In this document: positions 1,830-7,770 of the stretch, piece by piece
Position numbering within the stretch: position 1 is the stretch's first letter
Layout: the number at the start of each line of letters is the position of its first letter
Origin: Pseudonocardiales bacterium
GTDB taxonomy: Bacteria; Actinomycetota; Actinomycetes; Mycobacteriales; Pseudonocardiaceae
DNA: 62,534 nt
NCBI GenBank assembly: GCA_023252195.1
Contig: JAHEXI010000019.1
Location: 1 to 62,534, forward strand
Reading direction: 5' to 3'
Translations under genes and position numbers: made by a program
The notes under the pieces: model-generated
Databases searched by the model: none
What the model saw: only the letters and a program-made list of their open reading frames with translations
Told to the model about the DNA's origin: nothing

Positions 1830-2378
1830 GGTCCGGGCAGAAAAGGCCTGTCGGGTTCCAGAAGTTGGCCACAGGCCGTGAGCTGTGGATTCATGCTGCC
1901 CGCTCGTAGTCGTTGATCAGACCACCAAGGATCAGTCGACGTGCGACTCGCCTGTGATTGAGATCGGCAATGGGATGATCCGGGCGCGGAGGACGGGTCT
2001 GCACGAACTCGCCACCCGAGGCAAAACGAAGTGTGTGTGGTGGTCGGGCGGGCGCGATCCCGGCTCCGGCTGAGCACCAGTGTCGGGCGCCGGGTGCTGC
2101 ATGGTTGCCCGGTGGCCGTTGCCCTGCCGTGCCGTGACCTCAAACCGCGGGCCGGGATCGACGACATCGTCCTGGGCTCGATCTTCATTCCTTCAACAGC
2201 ACCCAGTCACCGACACACATCCGCTTCTGCCGCTGTCCGTGCGTGGGTGCCTAGCACACCGGGCCCGAGCGGCCTGTAAAGGACCCCATTGTGGGCATGA
2301 TGTCGCCAAGCGGTGCCGACTGTGGACAGCGCTGGTGTTGCCTGACGTCCCGTCGCTTATTGCGCGAAGCGCAAGTGG
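1830..2378. other. no gene seen
   Basis: Several short open frames occur, but none shows a recognisable motif or a convincing ribosome site. No tRNA, strong hairpin or repeat was found. It separates the repeat-bearing ORF from the convergent methyltransferase gene. Confidence 0.5.
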
Positions 2379-3218
2379 TTAGGCAGCTAAGGTGTTCTGC
2401 ACGAGTCCGGGTATCTCGTATGCGTCGTTGGAGCGGTAAGGGGCGACGACTTCTTCGACTCGGGCTCGTAATGCACGCTGCTTCTCATCTGTCAGATTGG
2501 CGATTGAGAGCGCGATCGCCCCCGCCAACTGGGTGAGGAACCGCCAGTAGGCATCGAAGTCCTGAAACCGCCAGCTCAGCTCCAGGTTCTCCCACCGTCG
2601 CACCTCGAACCCCGCGGCGGCCAGCAGGGAGCGTGTCCGCTCGGGATCGGCCATAGCGAAGATCCCGGGAGCGGTGGGATCGGGAGGGGAGGCGCCGGTG
2701 CACTCCAAAAGGGCGCGGCCGGGAAGGCTTGCCCAGGGGTTATCTTTGGGAGAGCCCCAGACCGACAGCACCAGCCCACCGCCGTCGCGGAGCACGCGTC
2801 GGGTTTCCCGCAGCGCCGCCGCAGGGTGGGCCATGAGCATGTAGCCCCAGCGGCAGAGCACACCGTCCACGCTGTCGTTGTCCAGGTCCATGCGTTCGGC
2901 GTCGAGCTGTCGGTGCTCGACGTTGCCCAGCCTCAGCCGCTGCGATTCGGCGCGCGCGGCCTGCACCATGTTCGGCGCAAAGTCTGTGCAGATCAGCCTG
3001 CCCTGGTCACCGAGCGCGGCTGCGGCGGCAAACCCCGTTTCACCTATGCCGGAGGCGAGCTCGAGGATCGTGTGACCCGGTTGTGGGGCGAGCGCCTGGA
3101 CCATCCACTCGCTTACCGCGTGCGAGGTCTCCCACAACCAGCGACGCTCTCGATCCCAACCTTCGGCCATCCGTTGCCAGACGTCGAAGCTGACTTGACG
3201 GTAGTCCTCACCGGCCAT
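2379..3218 (-). CDS. class I SAM-dependent methyltransferase
   Basis: Predicted soluble 279-residue methyltransferase of the UbiE/Methyltransf_11 type. The SAM-binding glycine motif ELASGIGETG lies at residues 53-62, followed by the acidic residue of motif II (CTDFAP, about 79) and motif III around RVLRDGGGLVLSVWG. These features establish the Rossmann methyltransferase fold. The acceptor substrate cannot be read from the sequence, and neighbours give no pathway. The length is usual for the family and the frame is intact. The start ATG follows an AT-rich stretch without a strong ribosome site. Confidence 0.85.
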   Translation of the reverse strand: MAGEDYRQVSFDVWQRMAEGWDRERRWLWETSHAVSEWMVQALAPQPGHTILELASGIGETGFAAAAALGDQGRLICTDFAPNMVQAARAESQRLRLGNVEHRQLDAERMDLDNDSVDGVLCRWGYMLMAHPAAALRETRRVLRDGGGLVLSVWGSPKDNPWASLPGRALLECTGASPPDPTAPGIFAMADPERTRSLLAAAGFEVRRWENLELSWRFQDFDAYWRFLTQLAGAIALSIANLTDEKQRALRARVEEVVAPYRSNDAYEIPGLVQNTLAA

Positions 3219-3307
3219 GGCGCGATTATAAGTTCGCGCCCTCCATGAGCCTCGACGCGGTTTGAGGAGCGTTGAGCCACCCGGCGCCAGATCGAGCTGT
3301 CGGATGC

Positions 3308-3682
3308 TCAGTTGGTGGCAGCGAGGGTGGCCAGGGTACGGATGGCGTCGTCGGCCCGGTCATGGGGCACAAACAGGTGGTCATGGGTGAATCCGGCGAC
3401 CACGTTGGCGCTGATCCCCGCCTCAGCCAAGACGCGGCTGACCGCCGCGGTCAAGCCGATGGCACTGAGGGCCGAATGAACCTGCAGGGTGATCCAGGCG
3501 GCGATGAAATCGTAGGGCAGACCAAGGTCATCGGCTTGCTGCTGAGGCAAAACCAGTGTCAATCCTTCGCCCTCGCGTACGACAACGACAGGGACCGCGC
3601 CCGGCGGGATGGCCTTGGAAACGATCGTGTAGACGTACGCGCCTTCACGCAGCTGCGGAGACAAACGGCGCAGTAAGGCCAC
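3308..3682 (-). CDS. ACT-domain protein
   Basis: A 124-residue protein matching the small ACT-domain family of COG3602 type (YTIVSKAIPPGAVPVVVVREGEGLTLVLP, ... HDHLFVPHDRADDAIRTLATLA). ACT domains bind amino acids or other small ligands and usually regulate enzymes; here the domain stands alone, so a sensor or chaperone-like role is possible but unproven. It is intact and of normal length. It lies downstream of nothing obviously related. Confidence 0.75.
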   Translation of the reverse strand: MALLRRLSPQLREGAYVYTIVSKAIPPGAVPVVVVREGEGLTLVLPQQQADDLGLPYDFIAAWITLQVHSALSAIGLTAAVSRVLAEAGISANVVAGFTHDHLFVPHDRADDAIRTLATLAATN

Positions 3683-3918
3683 AAGTCAGTCTCTGCATGC
3701 ACCGCTACACCATCATGCTCGTCGCTGCACTAGTCACATTCATCGAGCCCGACGGTGCACCCCAGCGCCTCCGTCCTGGGGCAAACTTCTTATCGGCACA
3801 TGTCCACTTCGGCGCGGAGCGCCTCACGAGACCGTCCGGACGTGCTCTTCTGCCGAGAAGCGTGTGCAGCTGTGGTCCGACAATCACGGTTGGCTATGCC
3901 GATGCTTGGCGTAATGGG

Positions 3919-4335
3919 TCACCCCGTGACTCGCCCGCGCGCTTGGGTGTAGTGCTTGTGCAACGCGCCGACGTGGCTAGCCCAGAAGAGTTGACGATCA
4001 TCGGTGGTGGCAGGTACCGGTAGCCCCTTGTTCTTGGCGAGGGCATAAAAGCCGGGCCCGGCGTCGTTGGCGTCGAGGTACTGGACGAGCGCGCTGATCA
4101 GCAGCCCGCCAGTCTCGGCGACGGTCTCTTCGGAGATCTGCCCGAGCAATTGGCCGATTGCGGCGCGGTCGGCCTCGAGGTCGAAGTTGAAGCCCGCGGT
4201 GTCGGTGCGGTTGATGAGGGCAGCGTTGAGTTCGGTGTACGAGGTGGTCCGCTGCATGGTGGCTCGCTCGATGAGGAACTTCTTCCCGACGTCCACCAGC
4301 CTTGTCCACTCCTCGTCGGAACGCCCGTACCGCAC
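3919..4335 (-). CDS. conserved actinobacterial hypothetical protein
   Basis: A 138-residue protein of a family I recognise by pattern (VRYGRSDEEW..., TTSYTELNAAL, LISALVQYLDANDAGPGFY) but not by function. The GTG at 4335 is chosen because GAAGGGAGG lies six bases upstream; an ATG further upstream at 4368 has no comparable site. The sequence is probably soluble, with no signal or membrane segment. The family often sits near mobile or defence-like loci, but nothing here supports a specific role. Confidence 0.6.
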   Translation of the reverse strand: MRYGRSDEEWTRLVDVGKKFLIERATMQRTTSYTELNAALINRTDTAGFNFDLEADRAAIGQLLGQISEETVAETGGLLISALVQYLDANDAGPGFYALAKNKGLPVPATTDDRQLFWASHVGALHKHYTQARGRVTG

Positions 4336-4548
4336 GATCGTCCTCCCTTCCATGCAGACCTTTGCCAAACCTCACTGACGTCTGTGTGAGAGTCGGAAAA
4401 ATCCATGCCAGCCCTACCGAGCCGGAGCGCCGTCGGCGAAGAAGCCCGGATGGCCTCACCGAGCCGGGTGTGCTCATCCCGGCCAAGGGCGTAGTGACCT
4501 TACGCCACGAACGTCGTCGAATGCCTCTCCCCCATCGGATGCACGGTC

Positions 4549-4626
4549 ATGCTTGATATGCAGGTAATCGTGAGGCTCCTTGTCCTTGAGGTACAGCGCC
4601 GCCGCGATTACCTGCATATCAAGCAT
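4549..4626. repeat. perfect 22-bp inverted repeat with 34-nt loop
   Basis: Arms 4549-4570 and 4605-4626 are exact reverse complements (ATGCTTGATATGCAGGTAAT and so on). The IS1595 copy starts two bases after the right arm, and its left target duplication overlaps that arm. A related motif, GATTACCCGCAT, recurs at about 5783 on the far side of the insertion. On the minus strand a 50-codon frame runs from 4626 to 4474 through the hairpin; I cannot tell whether it is a gene. Confidence 0.85.
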
Positions 4627-4627
4627 T

Positions 4628-5735
4628 GGGGCTATCCATTTAACCGGAGGGGTGCTGGTCGGTGGTTCTCCACGGGCGGTTTGCTGGTGGGCGCTCCAGG
4701 CTCGGTGGGCGCCCGCGTGTCGGTGGCGGCGTGGGCGGCACTGTCCGTGGTCGTTTGCTGGCGATGAGGTCCTGGTAGCGCACCGGCTGGTGGGCGACGG
4801 CGAGTTCGAGCACCCGGTAGAACACCAGCCCGCGGCTGCGAGAGCGGCGGCGGTTGAAGCGGAACACGAACTCGTTGAGGTAGCTGATCAGATGGGCGAC
4901 CTCGACCGAGCCTTGGTGGGTACCCAGCAGCCACCGTTTGACCAGCGAGGCGACCCGGTGCACCGCCGGCAGAAGCTCGCCAGGATCCTCCCCGCGGGCA
5001 CGGGCGGCGCGCTGGCTGCGCCGGTCGTGGAGGTAGCCAAGCTTGTCCAGCCCGCGATATCCCTGCCAGGCGTCGGTGATGACCCTCGTGCCCGGCTCGA
5101 TGTGATCGGTCACAAAAGCGTGCAACGAGGCGGCCGAGGCGTCAGACAGCGGCGCGATCCGGCACCGACCGAGTCCCTTCGGCTCGTGAACCTCGACTGC
5201 AATGCAGGTCAGAACTTTCTTGCCACGGGCCCGCCCGCCGCGCAGCCCGGCTTCCTCACCGCCGATGTAGGTCTCATCCACCTCCACTGTCCCGGCCAGT
5301 CGGTCTCGCCCAGGGCGCACCAGCACCCAGCGCAACCGGTGCAGCATCGTCCACGCGGTCTGATACGAGCCGATCTCCAGCGTCCGCTGCAGGCTCAGCG
5401 CGGAGATGCCGTCCTTGCCGGCGGCGGACAGCCAACAGGCGGTGAACCATACCGTCAGCGGCGTGCGCGTCCGATCGAAGATCGTGCCCGCTGTCGTCGA
5501 CGTGCGAGCTTGGCACCGGCCACACTCGAATCGGCCATCACCTAACCGCCAGCCCCGGGCGTAACCGCAGCCGGGACAGACGAACCCCGCTGGCCAGCGC
5601 AGCCACTCCAGGTAGTCCAGACAGTCCACATCAGTCCGAAACCAGGCCTGCAACTCACCCACCGACCTCGGGTAATGCACGCCGGCACGAGGGCGATCCA
5701 CCGCACCAGGTTACTCCGGTTAAATGGATAGCCCC
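4628..5735 (-). mobile_element. complete IS1595-family insertion sequence
   Basis: Inverted repeats GGGGCTATCCATTTAACCGG at 4628 and its complement ending at 5735 agree over 22 bases. The 10-bp sequence ATCAAGCATT is present immediately outside both ends (4618-4627 and 5736-5745), so insertion boundaries are unambiguous. IS1595 elements are usually reported with 8-bp duplications, so ten is slightly unusual. The element carries one gene, the transposase. Confidence 0.93.
4640..5701 (-). CDS. IS1595-family transposase
   Basis: A 353-residue DDE-type transposase of the ISXO2-like family. A zinc ribbon (CPGC ... CGRC) occupies residues about 43-68. The catalytic core shows VEVDETYIGGEE and VITDAWQGY, and the late HRVASLVKRWLLGTHQG region supplies the third acidic/amide position. 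The gene fills the element between its inverted repeats, starting at GTG 5701, and is uninterrupted, so the copy may still be active. The C-terminal tail is proline- and arginine-rich. Confidence 0.9.
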   Translation of the reverse strand: MDRPRAGVHYPRSVGELQAWFRTDVDCLDYLEWLRWPAGFVCPGCGYARGWRLGDGRFECGRCQARTSTTAGTIFDRTRTPLTVWFTACWLSAAGKDGISALSLQRTLEIGSYQTAWTMLHRLRWVLVRPGRDRLAGTVEVDETYIGGEEAGLRGGRARGKKVLTCIAVEVHEPKGLGRCRIAPLSDASAASLHAFVTDHIEPGTRVITDAWQGYRGLDKLGYLHDRRSQRAARARGEDPGELLPAVHRVASLVKRWLLGTHQGSVEVAHLISYLNEFVFRFNRRRSRSRGLVFYRVLELAVAHQPVRYQDLIASKRPRTVPPTPPPTRGRPPSLERPPANRPWRTTDQHPSG

Positions 5736-5794
5736 ATCAAGCATTATGCGGCCCGGTAGGGCGAAGGTAATCTCCGATTACCCGCATGAGGATG

Positions 5795-7529
5795 TCACGA
5801 ACCTCGTAGTTCGGCGACGGTCCGGTGGTCATTTAGGCGGCTTCGCGGGTCTGATTGTGCATCGTTGATGCTGACATTTTCGGTTGCGACATGCCGTTCG
5901 AGCGCGGTGCGCACCGAACGCAGATGCAGGTGGCCGTTGACGCGGCGGAACTGGGTGCTGGCTTCGACCATGCCGGCGGCGCACCAGCGCAGGGCCATCT
6001 GTCCGTTTCTCCAGCGTTTGACGTTGCGGGAGTGGTCTCGACAGATCCCGATCAAGCTCTCCACACAGTTGGTCGACCGCAGAGATCCGGCCAGGGTGGG
6101 CGGCACACCCAGGCGCGGCACGGTCAGCGTCTCGGCCCTCGCGTAGGGACGCCGCCGCGCCGGGGTGAGTGCGGTCCAGCTCGCCGGCCAAGGTTTCCAG
6201 CTGGGCTTGGGCGCTTAGCGCGGTCTCGGCGCGGTAGGCCGCGCGCATCCGCTTGCCCACCACTAAGCGCAGCTTCTTCGGAAGCCGATCTTGGACATTT
6301 CTCTCTTTGTGCAGTTTATGCCGACCTCCGGATTATGCCAATCAAGCCGATGCGACCATCGTTTCCACTGGTCATCGTGGTGGTAGGTATGGCGGCGTCG
6401 GCATAATCCGGGCTGTTTGAGGCGAGACCCTCCGTCAGATCGCGATCTCGAGGATATGGCAACGGTAACGAGCCGCGCACAGTCGAGGAACAGCCACCCG
6501 GATCTACGTGCAACGCTTACCCTCGCGCCACAAAGCGGGACCTGGCCAGCGTCGCATGCCCGAACAATCACAACCGCGCTTGCAGCGCGTCCGACTTCGT
6601 GTTCGCCGTTCCGGAGGGCCTTTGATTATGCCGACTTCATCACCTCCGGCACTGCCACCACCAGCTCCTTCAGACCAGACGTCGGCATAATCCGGAGATC
6701 GGCATAATGCAGTTGACACCTGGCGATCACCGGGTGATCGAACACATCGCCCACGCCGCGGCGTAGTGCCTTGGCCCCGTCGATCACGACCAGGATCGGG
6801 CAGGTGACGTCCAGGCCGCGCTCACGCAGCCCGACCAGCAGCTCGCGCACCAGGGTGGCGTTCTCCGTGGAGCCTTCCACCAGTGACAACGGGTGCTTCA
6901 CCCCGTCGATGTCGATCCCGAGCGCGACCACGCAGCAGTGCTCACCGAAGTGCACCCCGTCGACCACCAGCGCCACTAGATCCAGCCCGGACAGATCCGC
7001 GGCCAACAGCTCGGCCAGGGCAGCCTCGGTCGCAGCGACGAACCGGCGCGACACCGCCGACTTGCTGGTGGCGGTAGCGGCCTGCTCGACACGAACACCG
7101 ACCGGTTCCAGCCCGACCGGGTAGCACCGGGTCGAAAGCCCCGCCAGCATCCGCTGCATCGCCATGCGACCGAGCACCTCGGTCTGGGAGAACAGCTCAT
7201 AGGTCGGCACCGGTAGTTCTCCGGAACCATCGGTCGCGCGCATCCTGGGCCGCTCGACCGGTACCCGGCGCCCACCCAAGCTCACCGAGCCAGCCTCGTG
7301 GCCATGCCGGGTGGCCGTGCGCTGCTGATCGTGGCGACCCTTGACCCCGCACACCGCGGTCACGTCGGCTTCCATCATCGCGGTCATCACCTCCCGTCCC
7401 GGTGCCGACCGCGAGGGCCAGCAGACCCTCACGAACCGCACCAACCAACTCAGTCAGCGCCACGCTCACCTGCTCCGGCACGACAGGCTGGCTCATGCCG
7501 AGCTCGTCGTTCTGGTACTTCTTTCCCAC
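5795..7529 (-). pseudogene. IS256-family (mutator-type) transposase, interrupted and frameshifted
   Basis: The N-terminal half (7529 to 6714, minus) contains TSKSAVSRRFVAATEAALAE, the catalytic VVDGVHFGEHCCVVALGID and VVIDGAKALRRGV, and reaches VIARCQLH. The C-terminal half resumes at 6312 with KERNVQDRLPKKLRLVVGKR and continues to the NCVESLIGICRDHSRNVKRW region. Between them sits a 392-bp insertion. Two further lesions are visible: an extra base near 7390 after LLALAVGTG, and an apparent 5-bp loss near 6130 after SLREG. All residues expected of the family are otherwise present, so decay is recent. No terminal repeats of this IS could be matched confidently. Confidence 0.88.
6316..6707. mobile_element. 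392-bp MITE-like element inserted in the IS256 gene
   Basis: Both ends read TTATGCCGA-Y-CTCCGGAT followed by TATGCC in inverted orientation, 24 bases with one mismatch. TGCAGT is duplicated at 6310-6315 and 6708-6713. Removing the element and one duplicate restores the reading RCQLHKERNV in the transposase, which proves insertion. Each end holds two direct TTATGCC motifs 17 bases apart; two more copies face each other inside, at about 6394-6410 and 6624-6637. No ORF of the element looks coding, so it must be mobilised in trans. Confidence 0.9.
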
Positions 7530-7770
7530 GGCGGTCCCCTTCCTCGGGCCGTTCTTGGTCAGACACCCGAGTACCTACCGCACGGCAGGACTCAGGCGGG
7601 GGACCGCCGCCTGAAAATCCACGAGCCCTGGGACAACCTCCCTACATGGCCTCGGGCACATGCCACGAGCATGTCGATCAGCAGCCGTACGTACTGGAAT
7701 GCCGATGAGCGTGCGCATGCAGGATATTCCGCACAGGCAGGTTGTGCTCTCGCGGCAGAGCGCGCGAAGT

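Follow-up and report, generated by a model that had tools for sequence, protein, structure and literature searches.

Results

Structure of the insert and of the interrupted gene

The stretch analysed, here called the window, comprises 62,534 nt of contig JAHEXI010000019.1 from a Pseudonocardiales bacterium (assembly GCA_023252195.1, genome G000 below). On its minus strand it contains an IS256 transposase gene, which is split by a 392-bp insert at positions 6316-6707. The 5' part of the gene (6714-7529, minus strand), delimited by Pfam and by alignment to the uninterrupted paralog L198 (G000:C46), ends in ..ARCQL/H, its PF00872 match stopping at profile position 254. The 3' part (5795-6309, minus strand), delimited by the same alignment, reads LH/KERNV.., carries frame-breaking indels and by itself has no Pfam match. 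The paralog is 80% identical to the window gene over 1428 bp and aligns across the junction without the insert, restoring the IS256 reading as an earlier note on this DNA had claimed. That note had also considered that IS256 relatives might contain the segment as normal coding DNA, and the paralog lacks it. The 6-mer TGCAGT lies on both sides of the insert (left copy 6310-6315, right copy 6708-6713), and the empty site in L198 has a single ACTGCA at the junction where the window has the 6-mer twice. Independently of the insertion, the window copy (5784-7598) shows frame-breaking indels relative to L198, and L198 is itself broken by an in-frame TGA.

End comparison and motif scanning delimit terminal inverted repeats of 24 nt that are 96% complementary, the left one at 6316-6339 (plus strand), with the form TTATGCC-N10-TTATGCC, and the right one at 6684-6707 (minus strand). 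The 62.5-kb window has two occurrences of this double motif; 0 of 100 shuffles contain it. The site scan returned six exact TTATGCC sites, three per strand, at element positions 1>, 18>, 85<, 311>, 369< and 386<: site 1 (6316-6322, plus), an outer core half-site; site 2 (6333-6339, plus); the inner left site 3 (6400-6406, minus), whose offset of 84 is about one helical turn past the usual 74-77; the inner right site 4 (6626-6632, plus), at an offset of 75 from the right end; site 5 (6684-6690, minus); and site 6 (6701-6707, minus), the other outer core half-site. Each end consists of two direct copies 17 bp apart (1> and 18> on the left), as originally described, and together with its inner site it reads '> > <'. 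The inner pair do not face each other, as had been thought, since each points to its own end, and the core between them measures 219 bp (6407-6625) instead of 210.

The description of the core as gene-less was borne out by homology and Pfam searches, which gave neither significant recombinase homology nor a Pfam match. Within 6316-6707 the best recombinase hit (E 0.011) is a short terminal match to an antisense frame, and the candidate view of the core as a recombinase remnant was rejected on this ground. Pfam gives no match at E<=1 for a minus-strand ORF overlapping the insert (6263-6571), and 6316-6707 holds no set of three adjacent overlapping tyrosine-recombinase genes. The genome search found one copy of the insert in G000, and the window copy has no companion palindrome (described below) outside the element. 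The insert is confirmed as a real feature of this locus.

Full-length relatives with recombinase trios

A scan for the double motif yielded at least 117 stretches. Among the matches listed and the same-family genomes, several carry two facing copies 3.3-3.7 kb apart, and the earlier question of what full-length relatives with the same ends encode is answered by 3.35-kb elements with three overlapping tyrosine-recombinase ORFs (L060, L071 and, in the same genus, L167 and L169). PF00589 was matched by all six trio proteins tested, three from L167 and three from L169. Far from being unique to this locus, the ends thus recur on further copies, and the proposal of a MITE-like element with recombinase-arm-like paired sites, linked to recombinase-in-trio (RIT) elements, is supported, with the addition that a third, inner site belongs to each end. 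The ends of the 392-bp insert are laid out as in these trio elements, and we refer to it as a mini-RIT.

All six sites are at the expected places with <=1 mismatch in 11 of 13 elements (3 small, 10 large), L129 and L178 having five, in a count that omits L104, whose ends are not consistent, and L120, which has 2 mismatches, and treats L180-L182 as copies of L178. RitA-, RitB- and RitC-like ORFs at >=70% coverage are present in 7 of the 10 large elements; a full-length RitC match is missing in L178 and L179, and the RitA match in L129.

Third-site offsets were taken from the 95 of 133 loose ends that passed a filter, with multi-copy elements uncollapsed and some chance ends included. A third site within one mismatch was present in 78 of the 95, at an offset of 74-77 in 58 of them, 84-87 in 11, 65-66 in 3, 94 in 1 and elsewhere in 5; these steps of about 10 bp suggest helical phasing of the bound proteins. 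Shuffled loci gave 0 loose ends against the 133 in real loci, a control that speaks mainly to the third site because many loci had been fetched with the double motif. Beyond the 7-mers, columns -4, -1, +8 and +9 of sites 2 and 3 match above every shuffle (67 ends), which fits one shared recognition sequence; pairing of the two sites as a single-strand hairpin was considered and found weak.

The closest partner of the window insert is the trio L169 of the same-genus genome G048, which interrupts an IS256 gene at exactly this codon, the PF00872 matches of both 5' parts ending at 254. The contig of L169 stops just before the right end of the element. The outer 26 bp of the window right end show no mismatch to two of three G048 ends, and the right 102 bp are 80% identical to the third, a remnant likewise located in IS256 sequence.

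RITs of the same genome and of plasmids

No close helper trio was found in the insert's own assembly, where the best RitB-like protein (C44) is 29% identical. Given this low identity and the single copy of the insert, the helper may be absent or have been lost in assembly. The C44 trio (L195, G000:C44:26000-35000, about 2320-5907) is a second, divergent RIT with perfect inverted ends and the palindrome TTATGGGGAATTCCCCATAA beside it, and is not an evident partner of the insert; it is inserted at the LHDLRH motif of a tyrosine recombinase gene, cutting PF00589 at 134. Three further contig ends (both of L199, G000:C45, and one of L200, G000:C2) fall 113-114 bp inside a RIT-type end, TTATGCCGAGCCTTGCGTTAAGCC. 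They lie in IS3 genes at H-S-D or N-S-D, two of them meeting at rve 67/68, and probably represent a collapsed multi-copy RIT.

Plasmid RITs were picked by their RitB protein, 15 being fetched of 60 listed among 420 records. Inverted ends were present in 12 of the 15 (none in L252, L261 and L262) and the TTATGCC-type layout in 6 (L251, L253-L257); L249, L250, L259 and L260 have a different end sequence, and L248 (pHG1) and L258 fall outside the layout. Since only 6 of 15 share it, the layout is that of one large RIT group and not of all RITs. L251 again interrupts IS256 at the same position.

A dispersed family of small elements

Small elements were found in 4 of the 11 genomes searched in the genus, the own genome included: the window copy of 392 bp and copies of 374 bp in G191, 369 bp in G121 and about 474 bp in G138. 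The window core is 71% identical to the G191 element over element positions 83-223 and 69% identical to the G138 element over positions 82-229. As this core is common to the three, they form a dispersed family and not one local deletion; at 69-71% core identity these small relatives appear old, with no sign of recent movement.

The element of G121 lacks the outermost left site and lies in IS256 at the same motif as the window copy. The G191 copy sits 24 bp past an ORF for the reverse transcriptase of a group II intron, which has RVT_1, maturase and HNH domains. It lies inside a hairpin; the 34 nt of this hairpin, once joined, have a folding energy of -21.3 kcal/mol (z -4.8). We take this hairpin to resemble domain V of a group II intron; an Rfam search of the locus for a split domain V gave only a sub-threshold match, located elsewhere. 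In G138, the copy interrupts the reverse transcriptase of a group II intron at Y-C-D-D, with RVT_1 reaching 144 on one side and resuming at 154 on the other. The companion palindrome is also found beside the G191 and G138 small elements. A 409-bp element from a Solirubrobacteraceae MAG (L136, 4167-4575) retains a ritC-like stretch, and its origin by deletion is plausible.

Target genes of the relatives

Interrupted genes were characterized by a Pfam scan of 60 fragments plus the 5' parts of the window and L169 genes; the fragments were chosen by hand, so that the counts below are not an unbiased rate. For IS256, all 11 fragments matching PF00872 are cut at profile position 254-256, the C-x-x-H motif, and represent nine insertion sites (the window, L169, M. 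intechi L071/L265, L126, L054, L172, L173, L245 and L251). The IS256 flank fragments without a PF00872 match are the window 3' part and L171. The target of the window insert is therefore of the same kind as that of its autonomous relatives.

Fixed positions were also observed in IS66 (PF03050), with 4 of 4 fragments cut at 259 (L155, L053, L162, L137), and in the ArdC zincin (PF18818), with 4 of 4 at 52/53, that is, at HELxH (L121 on both sides, L095, L135). Tyrosine recombinase genes (PF00589) are cut at 128-134 (L136 and L249 on both flanks, L250, L195). Targets hit once are, among others, ISL3 (L167), DUF222-HNH (L179), a cytosine methylase (L142), an AAA ATPase (L255) and IS21, where rve begins (L260). 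No Pfam family was obtained for seven of the 60 fragments (L171, the window 3' part, L230, L056, L176, L177, L253). Left out of the Pfam-placed cuts were L229, L178, L256 and L109, with only helix-turn-helix matches before the cut, and L060, L174, L257 and L248, where the match ends short of the cut and the motif was identified by eye; the remaining motif names come from reading the translations. The motifs hit are catalytic or structural ones. In the recognised interrupted genes, insertions are mostly on conserved motifs of other mobile genes, which suggests that RIT-type elements are directed to conserved portions of such genes.

On a RitC tree of 35 rows, 26 of them labelled with 14 states (labels assigned partly by eye), target type requires 13 changes against a shuffle mean of 18.7, with 0 of 500 shuffles as low, and thus tracks descent more closely than shuffled labels do. 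A single clade of IS256 targeters was rejected on the same tree (6 rows, p-AU 5e-5); therefore, target choice shifts or arose more than once.

At five loci, the same half of the target gene flanks the element on both sides in inverted orientation: L136 (4167-4575) and L109 (216-3553), which are MAG contigs, and L248, L249 and L257, which are complete plasmids. This arrangement looks like inversion by recombination between an element end and the target. In L248 (pHG1 of Cupriavidus necator), the RIT lies between two identical inverted parts of a tyrosine-recombinase gene that is ritC-like by eye. RITs inserting into the genes of other RITs may explain the recombinase-gene 'maze' mentioned in the accessible part of PMC2864759.

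Flanking 6-mers and the companion palindrome

Genome G341 holds five RIT copies that are identical over 3456 bp. All five are in IS3 genes, with Pfam matches to rve or rve_2/rve_3 on both sides and to rve on each 5' side, and their insertion codons read H-[S/A/T]-D. The 6-mers beside them (CAGCGA, CGCCGA, CTCCGA, CACCGA) vary around the target codons. In 5 of 5 copies a palindrome of 20 bp, P, is found 3' of the target, with the element in either orientation. From these sequences, the native 6-mer would be the 5' one in 4 of the 5 copies, L220 being ambiguous. A companion palindrome adjoins 10 of the 17 elements listed, with a variant at L120 in addition, and the two 6-mers bordering a relative often differ or stand inverted to each other.

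In G176, a RIT present four times (L178, L180, L181, L182) is flanked by 6-mers drawn in mixed combinations from two sequences, GATGCC and GACGAC, and their complements, as expected for carried-over spacers.

In two Mesorhizobium elements (L251, 3569-9569, and L071/L265), located in two different IS256 genes, a 2.63-kb IS91-type module with genes for Y2_Tnp, Zn_Tnp_IS91 and a phage-type integrase (Pfam) lies between the element and P; the two elements are 98.4% identical and the modules 91.9%. Because of this position of the module, P behaves as a far terminus with a cargo slot, and the composites are apparently cargo-carrying RITs.

Discussion

Nature of the insert and rival explanations

The insert is, in our judgement, very probably a gene-less, MITE-like, non-autonomous derivative of a RIT element. 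A different origin for the same structure would be a full RIT in this very IS256 gene that lost its middle in place, leaving a small piece that was never mobile. The full trio at the same site in G048 fits such a history, and the ritC-like remnant kept by L136 indicates that internal deletion of RITs probably occurs. Nonetheless, the core (about positions 82-229) is common to the G191 and G138 small elements, which lie at unrelated targets (71% and 69% identity) and carry the companion palindrome, and it has no significant Rit homology, so that we regard deletion in place as unlikely.

An ordinary MITE derived from a DDE insertion sequence, with a coincidental TTATGCC, would also be short and gene-less with inverted ends and a 6-bp direct repeat. 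Full-length elements with the same ends, however, encode tyrosine recombinases and match the six-site layout, insertions recur at fixed conserved motifs, and the 6-mers beside relatives frequently differ or are inverted, unlike a DDE duplication, all of which makes this origin very improbable. Hardly any weight can be given to an array of REP-like palindromes, a repeat or regulatory element unrelated to transposition: the multiple palindromic sites and the one copy per own genome recall such arrays, but the insertion into a coding motif is clean, the paralog L198 is uninterrupted, and related ends are found on a trio element with five identical copies in one genome (G341). The duplication described in the earlier note stands as a 6-bp repeat; because the 6-mers of relatives are unequal or inverted, TGCAGT is better read as a recombinase spacer, the overlap region of tyrosine-recombinase strand exchange, than as a DDE-type target duplication.

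A possible mechanism of movement

For the RIT derivative preferred here, sequence comparison allows a route of movement to be proposed. Rit proteins acting in trans would join both ends around a 6-bp spacer (GGCATAA-N6-TTATGCC) to form a circle, the inner sites serving as arm sites, and the circle would recombine with a 6-bp target sequence at a conserved motif. The flanking 6-mers and P suggest such a circular intermediate, with the 6-mers as coupling sequences. Where P is part of the unit, the five G341 copies fit a circle of the form element-a-P-b, which would contain two 6-bp spacers and could open at either; the donor 6-mer would then remain on one side of the insertion and the target 6-mer on the opposite side. 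If donor and target 6-mers are equal, as is apparently true of the window insert, the product would look like a 6-bp duplication; equal 6-mers (ACTGCA in G048 and in the window) would give exactly the direct repeat observed.

Taken jointly, the observations are probably best read as RITs being widespread motif-homing transposons, the attB of each lineage being conserved, often active-site, motif DNA of another mobile gene: C-x-x-H of IS256, H-S-D of IS3, the vicinity of the third acidic residue of IS66, the first Asp of IS21 and rve, HxLRH of tyrosine recombinases, HELxH of ArdC, and domain V and YxDD of group II introns. The mobile unit would then consist of the element, a 6-bp spacer and the 20-bp companion palindrome as far terminus, with cargo possible in between, as for the IS91-type module of Mesorhizobium, and gene-less mini-RITs would be spun off from such units.

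Relation to known systems

The window insert shares with ritA-ritB-ritC elements its end layout and target position, its 24-bp ends and inner inverted sites matching those of full trio elements. At 392 bp and without recombinase genes, against 3.3-3.7 kb, it is a derivative and not itself a RIT. Typical MITEs derive from DDE insertion sequences. With prokaryotic MITEs the insert has in common that it is short, gene-less and flanked by a repeat, that its ends are those of an autonomous partner by which it is presumably moved in trans, and that TGCAGT is found twice in the window against once in the unoccupied paralog L198. Unlike them, it is single-copy in its genome, derives from tyrosine-recombinase elements and has a 6-bp repeat that we read as a recombination overlap.

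Group II introns home into other mobile elements by RNA-guided retrohoming at conserved target DNA. Both they and RITs parasitise mobile elements through conserved target DNA, by retrohoming in one case and tyrosine recombination in the other, and group II introns are themselves among the RIT-type targets. Strand-biased circularizing elements (SEs) and Tn554 (PMC10214605), like Tn916-type elements, resemble the present elements in the 6-bp spacer between end motifs and in that the donor 6-mer apparently ends up on one side of the insertion, as in the G341 copies; SEs and Tn554 differ in their protein sets (IntA, Tfp, IntB and Srap; TnpA, TnpB and TnpC). In PMC10214605, SE-6945 is stated to insert into insJ of IS3.

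RITs as such are already known. The accessible parts of Van Houdt et al. (2012, PMC3414803) describe elements of around 3,500 bp whose genes overlap, together with a '28-9 bp inverted repeat' and an overlapping palindrome, and name a Tn6049-like transposase gene as a place of insertion; IS66 tnpA and radC appear as insertion sites in the available text of PMC2864759, and that of PMC8138268 assigns two core-binding domains to RitA and an extra helix to RitC. Neither six-site arms nor motif-specific targets are described in those parts of PMC3414803 and PMC2864759. According to the text available, RIT mobility 'remains to be experimentally demonstrated' in 2012 (PMC3414803), and target specificity is tabled as not tested in 2023 (PMC10214605). 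A literature search for the end sequence gave only unrelated titles among the matches listed, and neither a gene-less RIT nor a target rule at motif level was found in the openly accessible literature searched; both are thus new relative to that literature.

In the mini-RIT, the cis-acting DNA (two ends of some 90 bp with three sites each) stands apart from the protein genes, so that the need for a trio can be addressed by direct tests. If motif targeting is true, RITs would be hyperparasites that inactivate transposases, recombinases and ribozymes where these are most conserved, and would also constitute a new source of sequence-specific integrases.
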